From: Allorhodopirellula solitaria
GTDB taxonomy: Bacteria > Planctomycetota > Planctomycetia > Pirellulales > Pirellulaceae
DNA: 64,000 bases
Direction: 5' to 3'
Assembly (NCBI RefSeq): GCF_007859855.1
Contig: NZ_SJPK01000010.1
Location: 124,001-188,000 of the forward strand
Shown one piece after another: positions 21,468-32,445 of the stretch. Both the position numbers and the translations under genes were made by a program. How positions within the stretch are numbered: the first letter of the stretch is position 1; every line of letters begins with the position of its first letter. The notes beneath the pieces were generated by a model. The model was given only the letters and a program-made list of their open reading frames with translations. It had not been told where the DNA came from and did not search any database.

Positions 21468-21842
21468 TCTATCTCAGTGGGTGATATCGGCAGTGGATGG
21501 CTCAATTGTCACGGCAAACGAAAAGCGGGTCAACGCGACCGACTCCGCGATCAGCAATTTCAGGATGAAAGAAACCGGCCGCGTGAGGCGAAAACGCTAC
21601 AATGAAAGAACGTCCCAGACGGACTTTGCTGTGATGCGGGGCAAGCCCACATGGGAGCGGGGTGAAAGCTCCATTTTCTAATCACAAAACAGAGTTTCCT
21701 GTCAGGCAAGCTGACAGGGGATCCGGTTTTGTGAGGAATCAACAGCGACATCCCCCCGCCAATCCGGGGCCGCCAGAGCAGCCTGCTCCGTGAGTTTCCA
21801 ATCCAATTCCCTAATTCCCATGCCACGAAAGGGAGCCCTGCG
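21468..21842. other. 375-base intergenic region holding a dispersed repeat
   Basis: Lies between the divergent trpB and the secreted-protein gene at 21843. It contains the left copy (21623-21734) of a roughly 112-base inverted repeat. The ORF-like frame over 21460-21681 looks spurious. No clear promoter boxes were recognised. Confidence 0.6.
21623..21734 (+). repeat. left copy of long imperfect inverted repeat flanking the 21843 gene
   Basis: This 112-base stretch matches, in reverse complement, 22959-23070 at most positions. Shared blocks include actttgctgt, gggcaagccc, catgggagcgggg, ctaatcacaaaac, tcctgtca and caagctgacaggggatccgg. The internal CCTGTCAG...CTGACAGG is a REP-like palindrome. 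The two copies bracket one gene. Confidence 0.8.
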
Positions 21843-22958: not shown

Positions 22959-23070
22959 CACGAAACCGGATCCCCTGTCAGCTTGTCTGACAGGAATCTC
23001 CGTTTTGTGATTAGAACAATAGAGCGTTTGCCCCGCTCCCATGCGGGCTTGCCCCACATGACAGCAAAGT
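22959..23070 (-). repeat. right copy of long imperfect inverted repeat
   Basis: Reverse-complement partner of 21623-21734, sharing the same ordered blocks over about 112 bases. Its ttttgtgattag segment also occurs in the 217-bp repeat array at 30.8-32.4 kb, which suggests related repeat families. Confidence 0.8.
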
Positions 23071-23126
23071 TTATCGACTTGGTTTCCCGTCAGACAAGCT
23101 GACAGGGGAAGGTGTGTCAATACCGC

Positions 23127-23200
23127 TGGTTTTCTAATTTGAAAACGTCGCTTCGGCGTGTGACAAGCACACGGGGGAGCAAACTTGTGGGTAATCAACA
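23127..23200 (+). repeat. dispersed direct repeat, copy 1
   Basis: Block beginning ggttttcta and running through cgtcgcttcggcgtgtgaca, agcacacggggg and tgtgggtaat. A copy with a few changes lies at 57105-57176, 34 kb away in the same orientation. No coding sense. Confidence 0.8.
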
Positions 23201-29792: not shown

Positions 29793-30815
29793 TCAGCCGT
29801 CCGACTCAAGAGTCGGATAGGCATAGTCGAAATAGTTTTCTCGACGCACCCATCTGAGCAGCACCGGTGACGACCGAACAGCGGCCTGGTGAAAGTCGAA
29901 ACCGCGACGATAAACGCGATGAAATCGTGCTTGCATCTCATCGAGTTCTTTCGGTGGTAACAGCGTACGTTTCCAATAGCTCGCCCAACGGCGGGCAATC
30001 GAAATCTTGCGGGGCACCTTTTCGACAGGGTCCTCGCCTTGGCGAATTTGCGTGTAGGAATCGCAGACTCCTTGGTAAAACGACCGCTGATCAAAGTACT
30101 CCGGTGTCATGCGTTGAGCACCAATGTGATGCCATACAAGCGCATCGGGATGATAGACCGCCCGGTGTCCAGCGGCAGCAATTTTGTGACTCAACCCCGT
30201 CTCTCCATCGCCCTGAAAGTGCTGCATCGATTTGGGCACACAATCGGGATGGAACCCACCGTACTGGCGCAGGGCCGAGCGACGAATCGCGTAGTTCAAA
30301 CCCCAGACGAAATCTGGATGGATCGTCGTGACAGAATTCGTGTTCAACTCCAGCAGACTGAGCTGGGCCATTTGCCGGCCACCATCAGGCGTCGGTTGCC
30401 AGCAGCGGTGAAGCCACTCCGGAGGTTCGGCCGCAAACTCGGGCAGACTCGGTCCGCCAGCGAGCACGACCTCGGGATCGGCAAAGACACTCGACAACGC
30501 CGTCATCCATCCCGGAGCGACCGTGATGTCATCGTCGATGAAGACGAGCAGCTCACCGGATGACTCATCGGCTCCTCGATGACGCCCCGACAGCAAACCG
30601 GGAACCTCGTCATAAACGATCTTCAAATGCAAACAATCATACTGCTGAGCAACACGATCGTAGTTTGCTCGATCATCCCGTCGATCTCGCTCCGACAACC
30701 CGTTCTGAACCACGATCACTTCCTCGGGACAATCTTGAAGCGCTGCGAGTGATTGCAAAGTCTGGTCGATACATCGCAGCGTTTTGACGGTCGGGATGAT
30801 TACAGAACGTTTCAT
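29793..30815 (-). CDS. family 2 glycosyltransferase
   Basis: A 340-residue GT-A fold glycosyltransferase. It begins MKRSVIIPTVKTLRCIDQTL, carries the metal-binding FIDDDITVAPGWM motif near residue 100, and has FQGDGETGLSHKI, typical of the acceptor-side acidic motif. No membrane helices are evident, so it is probably cytoplasmic and peripheral. The frame opens at 30917, but the extra 34 residues lie in the repeat array (the same sequence appears after the transposase gene), so ATG 30815 is chosen. It belongs to the glycan locus with the methyltransferase and ABC genes to the right. Confidence 0.88.
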   Translation of the reverse strand: MKRSVIIPTVKTLRCIDQTLQSLAALQDCPEEVIVVQNGLSERDRRDDRANYDRVAQQYDCLHLKIVYDEVPGLLSGRHRGADESSGELLVFIDDDITVAPGWMTALSSVFADPEVVLAGGPSLPEFAAEPPEWLHRCWQPTPDGGRQMAQLSLLELNTNSVTTIHPDFVWGLNYAIRRSALRQYGGFHPDCVPKSMQHFQGDGETGLSHKIAAAGHRAVYHPDALVWHHIGAQRMTPEYFDQRSFYQGVCDSYTQIRQGEDPVEKVPRKISIARRWASYWKRTLLPPKELDEMQARFHRVYRRGFDFHQAAVRSSPVLLRWVRRENYFDYAYPTLESDG

Positions 30816-30850
30816 GAGATATCGAATTCCTGGATCTGGACCACGCATGT

Positions 30851-32445
30851 CCCCTGGCCAGCTTGCCCGGCAGGAAGCAAAAGTTTTTGAGCCAACCGGG
30901 GAAGGGCGCACGGTCATCCGTTCATTCTAACTTCAAAACGTCCGCTCCTGCTGGGCAGGCCAGCAGGGGGCGTCAGTCCGCCGGAAGCACGCATGTCCCC
31001 TGGCCGGCTTGTCCGGCAGGAACAAACGTTTTGTGATTAGCTTTGTTGCGGCCAATCCCCAATCGCTCCCCTGGCCAGCTTGCCTGGCAGGAAGCAAAAG
31101 TCCATCTCATCTACGCAACGCACGAACGTCGTACTCACTAAACGTACCTGCATAAAACCCATGCTGCCAGATCGCATTCTGGCCCATGGTGTAGGCAGTG
31201 TTGTTCATGATTGCCAATGCAATCTCCGCCGGGCTTTCTTCGATATTGCCTCGCATTGCCACATGTAGATGATCGGGCATCCACGCACGAGCCGCCAGTC
31301 GGTGATGATGCTTCTTCGCTGTTGCAACAAGCGATCGATCCAGTGCCTCGAAATCCCGCTGCCTGCGATATCGAACACGATTGGAAGTCACCAAGACGAT
31401 ATGCACGTCGTACCAATAGCGGCCACTAATCGATTCGCTCGGTTGATCCAGGGCAACGCTAGAATCCAATGTCGTGAAGCGTTTGAGCATCGCAGCGAAT
31501 CTCGGATCGACAAACTTCTCCCTGTCGACCTGCTGCGAGACGTATTCTTCAACCTCGGCAGTATGGTTGGCGCCGATCCCTCGAAAAGCGACTTTCCGGC
31601 TAAACTTCACCGTGTTTCTTGCCAAACGAAGAGCATGCTGCAATCGTCCTTTGGCGCGGGACACACACAACACCGGTGAAACGGTTGGAATGGCTGAAAA
31701 ACCGAGTTGAACCTGGGATCGCTCCCAAGCAGTCGACAGATGCTTCAAATTGTCCGTTGCCCATTGTTCGTCAAGTTGCCTGAAAAAGTCGTCATCTGGC
31801 TGCGACGGGAACGCACTACCTCCTGCAGGCCAGCCGGTCCACGTGTAGCGAAGGTGATAGGCTGGCCGTGTGTTTTCAAGCACATAGATTGGTTTGGGCA
31901 TGGTAGAAACTTTCCTTTCCGGTTGGACAAGCCAACCGGGGAGGGGCGCACAGTCACCCGTTCATTCTAACTTCAAAACGTCCGCTCCTGCCGGGCAAGC
32001 CAGCAGGGGGCGTCAGTCGACCGGAAACACACATGTCCCCTCGCCGGCTCGCCCGGCAGGAACAAACGTTTTGCGATTAGCTTCGTCGCCGCCAATCCCC
32101 AATCGCTCCCCTGGCCAGCTTGCCTGGCAGGAAGCAAAAGTTCTTGAGCCAACCGGGGAGGAGCGCACGGACATCCGTTCATTCTAACTTCAAAACGTCC
32201 GCTCCTGCTGGGCAAGCCAGCAGGGGGCGTCAGTCGACCGAAAACACACATGTCCCCTCGCCGGCTTGCCCGGCAGGAACAAACGTTTTGTGATTAGCTT
32301 CGTCGCCGCCAAGCCCCAATCGCTCCCCTGGCCAGCTTGCCTGGCAGGAAGCAAAAGTTTTTGAGCCAACCGGGGAGGGGCGCACAGTCACCCGTTCATT
32401 CTAACTTCAAAACGTCCGCTCCTGCTGGGCAAGCCAGCAGGGGGC
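30851..32445 (+). repeat. 217-bp-period tandem array interrupted by a RAYT gene
   Basis: Units start at cccctggccagcttgc. Unit 1 is 30851-31067 and unit 3 is 32108-32324, each exactly 217 bases. Unit 4 is partial, 32325-32445. Unit 2 is split: its first 33 bases (31068-31100) lie left of the transposase gene, and its last 177 (31931-32107) lie right of it. Together with about 7 replaced bases these again make 217. Each unit holds two or three REP-like palindromes (ccagcttgcctggcagg, ctgctgggcaagccagcag) and a ttttgtgattag block. Confidence 0.9.
31107..31901 (-). CDS. REP-associated tyrosine transposase (RAYT), IS200-related HUH family
   Basis: A 264-residue Y1 transposase-like protein. The HUH motif is in WMPDHLHVAM (residues about 211-213). 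The C-terminal part has NNTAYTMGQNAIWQHGFYAG then FSEYDVRAL, with candidate catalytic tyrosines at about 237, 250 and 257. The N-terminal 150 residues (YVLENTRPAYHLRYTWTGWP) are an extra domain seen in planctomycete relatives. Both motif halves are present, so it may be active. It is embedded inside one unit of a REP-rich 217-bp array, the arrangement expected if the array palindromes are its substrate. Confidence 0.85.
   Translation of the reverse strand: MPKPIYVLENTRPAYHLRYTWTGWPAGGSAFPSQPDDDFFRQLDEQWATDNLKHLSTAWERSQVQLGFSAIPTVSPVLCVSRAKGRLQHALRLARNTVKFSRKVAFRGIGANHTAEVEEYVSQQVDREKFVDPRFAAMLKRFTTLDSSVALDQPSESISGRYWYDVHIVLVTSNRVRYRRQRDFEALDRSLVATAKKHHHRLAARAWMPDHLHVAMRGNIEESPAEIALAIMNNTAYTMGQNAIWQHGFYAGTFSEYDVRALRR

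Follow-up and report, generated by a model that had tools for sequence, protein, structure and literature searches.

A hairpin-bounded element with a predicted single-chain double-Y1 transposase, and related gene-less elements, in Allorhodopirellula solitaria

Described Y1 systems and the two-half protein

IS608 TnpA is a dimer with a trans active site, to which one monomer contributes the tyrosine of helix alpha-D and the other the HUH motif; Q131, four residues past Y127, coordinates the metal with H64 and H66 (accessible part of PMC5934647). Y1 proteins were classified by Quentin et al. in 2018. In the available text of that paper, RAYTs have the motif Y---NP, and TnpA_Y1 class 3 is found in Planctomycetes, Acidobacteria and Proteobacteria with the motif Y----Q and a CnGA foot; the table value of 178 for class 3 is read here as the median length, and a few unexpectedly long proteins were discarded from the classification (PMC6006769). 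REPINs were described by Bertels and Rainey in 2011, including tandem clusters that contain flanking sequence, some of them beside RAYTs. The accessible text proposes an origin of REPINs in the REPs beside an IS200-like ancestor, and describes RAYTs as single-copy and apparently not self-mobile (PMC3116915). GTAG and CGTC repeats, present also in Planctomycetes, are treated together with REPtrons and TIRtrons in the available part of a 2013 paper (PMC3733652), and the use of GTAG and the stem by TnpA_REP proteins in that of PMC8266576. The phrase "two HUH domains" occurs in the accessible part of a virus paper (PMC10962738), and PMC11588811 contains no mention of RAYT. No description of a fused or double Y1 protein was among the matches listed in a limited open-access literature. 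A classification of RAYTs was reportedly also given by Bertels and colleagues in 2017.

The DNA studied here, called the window, is a stretch of 64,000 nucleotides from Allorhodopirellula solitaria (source genome G000, 6.8 Mb; G000:C10:124001-188000). It contains a transposase gene with two dissimilar halves:

31107..31901, minus strand: gene of a 264-aa double-Y1 transposase, RAYT-like (Y1_Tnp PF01797, E 5.3e-9)
31507..31901, minus strand: N-terminal Y1-like half with Y120---Q124; HUH lost, with Q65 at the place of the second His
31107..31450, minus strand: C-terminal Y1 half with HUH H211/H213; stops before the tyrosine helix

The locus is read here, with a probability of about 0.7, as a mobile element bounded by hairpins, the fused-Y1 transposase of which would act as a single chain with one composite site, and the gene-less copies of which would have arisen by gene loss.

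Homologues were collected from 74 loci. Two of them, L086 and L088, duplicate L012 and L019 as judged by equal scores and frames, and were dropped; a further 17 that were partial, split or did not span the model were left out as well, which gave 55 sequences. The 53-sequence alignment (A2) also leaves out the distant L144 and L145, and L009, which is the window gene. Y120, Q124, H211 and H213 were each present in 55/55 full-length sequences, window included. At position 65 of the N-half, Q was found in 49 of the 55 and H in 2. The 53-sequence alignment had seven invariant columns: S69, K84, G110, Y120, Q124, H211 and H213.

All 53 sequences matched Y1_Tnp PF01797 at E<=0.01. The window protein matched only at residues 164-259 (profile positions 5-111 of 121), and the best stretch of L010 and L019 lay in the N-half (profile positions 39-121 and 35-121 of 121). 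At a lax E<=10, the window protein had a single Y1_Tnp stretch, and L010, L011, L012 and L019 had two each. When N-halves alone were compared with the Pfam cut-off of 23 bits, L019 (31.8 bits) and L010 (24.8 bits) passed, L011 (13.2 bits) fell below it, and the N-half of the window protein gave no Pfam hit. Against seven single-domain Y1 proteins of the same genome, the N-half matched with P=1e-5 over columns that include the tyrosine, and the C-half with P=9e-7 over the HUH. The direct profile match of the N-half with the C-half was not significant (hhalign P=0.098 local, 0.28 global), so the kinship of the halves rests on the match of each to Y1 and on the fold.

The AlphaFold model from 53 sequences had a pLDDT of 95.2 and a pTM of 0.91; that from five sequences was moderate, with a pLDDT of 70.4. 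The predicted fold has two similar beta-alpha repeats. The first is followed by a helix (114-122) that carries the tyrosine, and the second by only a 4-residue helix (260-263). Foldseek matched the model to ISDra2 and IS608 TnpA (TM by target length, 0.58-0.80; most rmsd values 2-4, two of 7.3) and to TnpA_REP 4er8 (TM 0.50). The top matches by E-value were coproheme decarboxylase chains with poor superposition (rmsd about 15), which we take to be chance matches of two ferredoxin-like repeats. When solved structures were searched by sequence with the single protein, the one match, at E 1.5, was an unrelated transporter protein.

The first half has Y120 with Q124 and the second has H211/H213, one of each, which is most simply explained by a single-chain pseudo-dimer. 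Y120 of the N-domain would act as the nucleophilic tyrosine and Q124 as the third metal ligand, H211 and H213 of the C-domain would be the HUH metal ligands, and the two domains would form one composite active site in one chain, like that of the trans IS608 TnpA dimer. If so, a fused pair with split residues could be used to test whether transposition needs two active sites or one. Alternatively, the active form may be a dimer of chains with two composite sites, or loci with a broken linker may encode two-gene heterodimers. This is a tentative possibility: IS608 TnpA acts as a dimer (accessible part of PMC5934647), and at L136-L138 frame breaks interrupt the linker that joins the halves, both of which are otherwise open, but those frame breaks may mark simple pseudogenes. 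L135, its halves also otherwise open, has an insert of about 300 bp in the linker. The loci L135-L138 may be either pseudogenes or two-part enzymes.

The window protein resembles IS608 and ISDra2 TnpA in its Y1 HUH fold, its Y---Q motif and the hairpins at both ends of the element. TnpA of these elements consists of two identical chains of about 150 aa with two sites, whereas the window protein is one 264-aa chain with unlike halves, one set of residues and two hairpins per side. Subclass 1.1 has HUH and Y---Q in one domain of about 150 aa; here HUH lies in the C-half and Y---Q in the N-half.

The original prediction labelled the gene a RAYT. The REP-flanked arrangement agrees with this label; three other features, namely the tyrosine motif, the foot of the REPs and the layout of the domains, disagree with it. 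As with RAYT/TnpA_REP proteins (class 2), REP-like hairpins flank the gene and occur dispersed through the genome (the window's genome was the one tested), and a Y1 HUH core is present, with its catalytic residues split over the two halves. In place of Y---NP (available text of PMC6006769), the window family has Q at Y+4 in 55/55. It further differs from RAYTs in the absence of a GT[AG]G foot, in its second domain and, apparently, in having closely related copies with different flanks in one genome. Class 3 is similar in its occurrence in Planctomycetes and its atypical hairpins, but the window family has Y---Q in 55/55, CnGA at 0/107 hairpins and a length of 264 aa. Assignment to class 3 or to the canonical RAYTs was ruled out by the tyrosine motif and the foot.

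Hairpins, the gene-bearing element and dispersed gene-less copies

Hairpins flanking the family genes were searched at 53 loci, within 300 bp on each side, as 8-nt arms with at least 7 pairs and a 5-nt loop. The 31.1 kb of flank contained 149 such strict hairpins, against 12 in one flank shuffle; the 41.9 kb within genes contained 11, against 15 in shuffled genes. Orientation was biased: 57 ">", 9 "<" and 3 other hairpins lay upstream of the genes, and 57 "<", 17 ">" and 6 other hairpins lay downstream. At least one strict hairpin was found within 300 bp at 41/53 loci and on both sides at 32/53; at 12/53 loci no strict hairpin was found in these flanks. The loop was usually CYYGY, and the stems varied between lineages. 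Among the 107 CYYGY hairpins in the expected orientation, none had a GT[AG]G foot within 7 nt, and none a CnGA foot within 6 nt, on the 5' side.

At the window locus, the element consists of four hairpins in the order C-A-D-B, with the gene placed between A and D:

31919..31939, no strand: hairpin D, complete, directly upstream of the gene start; same 21-mer in L011
31987..32007, no strand: hairpin B2, outer, 5' side of the gene; homology to L011 starts at its outer edge
31068..31093, no strand: hairpin A1, inner, 3' side of the gene; A-like hairpins downstream of the L011 and L012 genes
30997..31022, no strand: hairpin C1, outer, 3' side of the gene
30996..32008, minus strand: putative gene-bearing element C-A-[gene]-D-B, about 1.0 kb, delimited from the order at L011 and the ends of homology at L010 and L091

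A scan of named genomes, which finds close relatives only, gave two relatives. The window gene is 69% identical to that of L011 by alignment (70% by search) and 64% identical to that of L012 (Planctomycetaceae bacterium UBA6163). The L011 contig is filed under a Candidatus Kuenenia assembly and may be misbinned. Both loci have B, D and the gene in this order, with an A-like hairpin downstream, and the D upstream of the L011 gene is identical to the 21-mer of the window. Nucleotide homology between the window and L011 starts at the outer edge of B and spans D, the gene and A. The earlier expectation that the gene occupies a defined place within the repeat was thus borne out, since B, D, the gene and A are placed in the same way around both relatives. 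Among more distant relatives, L010 (same genome) and L091 (G159) share homology that starts at the outer upstream hairpin and stops just past the outer downstream hairpin. At L010 and L019, too, stretches of hairpins are repeated directly on either side of the gene. Such repeats were absent from the stretches of L011 and L012 examined, and there was no array like that of the window in these stretches, that of L012 ending 37 nt after the gene.

Two copies in G126, L116 and L117, were 94% identical over 1,028 nt (dS 0.039) and had different flanks; beyond the gene, their homology extends about 150 nt on the upstream side and 73-84 nt on the downstream side. In one genome at least, the REPtron seems to have been mobile recently, which sets it apart from the RAYTs in the accessible part of PMC3116915. 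The second G126 copy is on an 8.9-kb contig of an incomplete assembly, so an assembly or contamination problem may apply. In the proposed mechanism, the protein would bind the single-stranded CYYGY-loop hairpins that mark each end of the element, the pair B/D at one and the pair A/C at the other, and would cut and rejoin the DNA there.

Gene-less elements of the same hairpin order are dispersed in the source genome. A 221-bp query gave at least 40 near-full matches to a diverged gene-less C-A-D-B element in G000 (172-221 nt covered, 92-100% identity); the number is a lower bound, as the best 40 of 140 candidates were taken. The hairpin pattern occurs at 155 sites of this genome (<=2 mismatches), against 0 for a reversed-pattern control. 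One full copy and the trace of another lie in the window:

22970..23180, plus strand: dispersed gene-less C-A-D-B element with a complete D

A partial gene-less element was also seen near 21640-21725. The dispersed unit has four hairpins. Its length, counted from C through B, is 203-209 nt in 14 of the 16 copies examined, and in the remaining two no B end was located. The joined flanks of the window gene were compared with the consensus of 14 gene-less copies. They aligned at 158/200 positions with a score of 164, against 54 +/- 8 for 300 shuffles (maximum 84.5) and 94.5 for swapped halves. The reverse complement also scored high (146) because the element is nearly dyad-symmetric.

Like REPINs, the gene-less units are short non-autonomous hairpin elements, and the window shares with REPINs the tandem clusters with flanking sequence, some beside a RAYT. 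Unlike a REPIN, with its two inverted REPs, the gene-less unit has four hairpins and keeps the order in which they surround the gene in the presumed parent.

The dispersed copies may have been moved by a different transposase, one acting on terminal inverted repeats or GTAG repeats, and merely share their hairpins with the gene-bearing element. Most of the 16 copies end in approximate inverted repeats of type CTGTTGATTACCCACAA, and many adjoin GTAGTGGACGAGGCGACGAG repeats, which are of GTAG type and lie outside the element. Both kinds of repeat are absent from the array and gene locus, so another transposase may move the dispersed copies. The genome has 13 other Y1_Tnp matches, 10 of them near full length without stops. 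Against this, the window copy at 22970 is without the GTAG part, 0/9 single-domain Y1 genes examined have such REPs within 300 bp (three have other hairpins), and near-full elements coincide with the window's double-Y1 gene in 1/13 species. A different mobiliser is considered possible but less likely than not. Gene-less elements beside or inside GTAGTGGACGAGGCGACGAG repeats were also seen at L006, L007, L018, L027 and others, and the GTAGTGGACGAGGCGACGAG stretch of the query had more than 30 matches in G007 as well.

In the 12 other species of the genus, the 221-bp query gave no near-full match: G009 had six short matches and the other 11 had none. Similar hairpins were found at 82 sites in G009 (loci L213-L218) at <=1 mismatch, and no double-Y1 match was found there by profile search, which speaks against the main reading.

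The 217-bp array and the origin of its units

The original prediction described a tandem array with a period of exactly 217 bp. With the coordinates recomputed in the window, the array is real:

30851-31067: unit 1, 217 bp
31068-32107: unit 2, interrupted by the Y1-transposase gene
31068-31101: left part of unit 2, 34 bases
31930-32107: right part of unit 2, 178 bases
32108-32324: unit 3, 217 bp
32325-32445: unit 4, partial, 121 bp, end of the array

Units 1 and 3 have the predicted length of exactly 217 bases. Unit 2 is split by the gene as described, with parts of 34 and 178 bases and 5 unit bases missing or replaced at the gene, instead of the 33 and 177 bases and about 7 replaced that had been given. 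Units 1 and 3 were identical at 200/217 positions and units 4 and 1 at 116/121; the right part of unit 2 agreed with unit 3 at 169/178 positions and with unit 4 at 81/82. The palindrome pattern common to the units had 8 matches in the window (<=3 mismatches); the mean of 100 shuffles was 0.00. A genome search with the 217-bp unit gave 14 matches among the best 40 of 87 candidates: five were the array itself and nine were a 44-nt piece elsewhere. Among these matches there was no further full copy of the intact unit; the 44-nt piece is the C hairpin, at the end of the dispersed C-A-D-B element with a complete D.

The 217-bp register is not the natural one, as the elements run C-A-D-B. Hairpin C begins at 30997, 32037 and 32254, and A at 31068, 32108 and 32325; B, in the opposite orientation, begins at 30947, 31987, 32204 and 32421. 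The leftmost hairpin, 30851-30876, looks like a C/A hybrid. In this register, the gene-less elements of the array are:

30851..30967, no strand: leftmost, partial; C/A hybrid, half-D 30890-30903, B1 30947-30967
32037..32224, no strand: C2, A2 32108-32133, half-D 32147-32160, B3 32204-32224
32254..32441, no strand: C3, A3 32325-32350, half-D 32364-32377, B4 32421-32441

A complete D (31919-31939) is found in the array only beside the gene. The three gene-less places carry only its right half, AGCCAACCGGGG, which does not fold as the D hairpin. An open frame for a glycosyltransferase (29793-30917) begins within the array; the true start probably lies close to 30815 (MKRSVIIPT), so that automatic annotation may overextend the gene.

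Sequence comparison makes the gene-bearing element the probable ancestor. A complete D stands beside homologous genes in two other records and a half-D in the gene-less units of the array, so that gene loss accounts for the pattern better than gene gain. The best reading of the gene-less units of the array is that they arose from the gene-bearing element by deletion. Gene-less elements in general would arise when the gene is lost from its place between A and D. In one case, half of D may have gone with the gene, and tandem duplication with the spacer may then have followed in the array; another loss may have kept the whole D and given the four-hairpin element dispersed in at least 40 copies. 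The half-D units of the array are an unlikely source of the dispersed copies, which have a complete D. A simple deletion is opposed by the 5 replaced junction bases, which are not explained by deleting the present gene copy. With an element and its likely deletion derivatives in one array, the locus bears on how gene-less REP elements arise from a parent.

It was also proposed that the gene had entered a ready-made unit. A gene-less tandem array that came first and then received the transposase gene in one unit would agree with three of the four units being without a gene and sharing one register, and with the GC content of the gene copy (0.532, against 0.586 for the window). Nevertheless, this order of events is improbable: B, D, the gene and A have the same order and orientation at the 70% and 64% homologues, where no array was found in the stretches examined, D is complete beside the gene and halved elsewhere in the array, and a clean insertion should not replace unit bases. 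The complete D beside homologous genes and the half-D in gene-less units likewise speak against the original prediction on this point. A search for an unsplit site in relatives, which the original prediction had suggested, gave a neighbouring methyltransferase at 74% in G006, followed by other genes downstream as judged by eye, and no clean empty site.

The suggestion that the protein itself drove the amplification was not supported. Each array unit repeats a 29-nt spacer that separates B from the following C; a period that includes such a spacer between elements fits tandem duplication by recombination or slippage.

Spread of the family and selection

The distribution of the double-Y1 gene was investigated with two profiles. 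The five-sequence profile matched 50 of 241 family genomes, fragments included (best <=10 candidates per genome), and the hairpin pattern searched in G009 matched 15 of the 241. The 53-sequence profile matched 58 of 392 phylum genomes (best <=6 candidates per genome). Among the candidates scored, near-full-length matches outside the family were found in G354 and G301 and a shorter one in G369; many other phylum matches were short and may be ordinary Y1 proteins. A double-Y1 gene was present in 2/13 genomes of the genus, the window's own version only in G000.

For selection analysis, nine pairs were chosen from 17 close pairs, some of which share a locus. The dN/dS of the whole gene was 0.10-0.26 in 9/9 pairs tried, and dN was lower than dS in both halves. 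Selection on the double-Y1 gene is purifying. That the protein is domesticated or inactive, its two-half layout being a degenerate non-catalytic remnant, would suit the loss of a catalytic part from each half and the three loci with linker frame breaks, but is the least probable reading in view of the four complementary catalytic residues in all 55 sequences, the low dN/dS and the existence of recent copies.

On these results, we lean towards a distinct planctomycete HUH class, with Planctomycetes being the only phylum searched in depth for double-Y1 proteins. Such a class would combine a single-chain Y1 pseudo-dimer having one composite site with a self-mobile REPtron of CYYGY hairpins. It could represent a living intermediate between IS200 and REP/RAYT systems, in which parents persist beside their gene-loss derivatives.

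Single-domain Y1 genes were also observed in the source genome. L160, L161 and L162 (G000:C20) are near-identical, carry the motif YVERNP and lie within about 5 kb.
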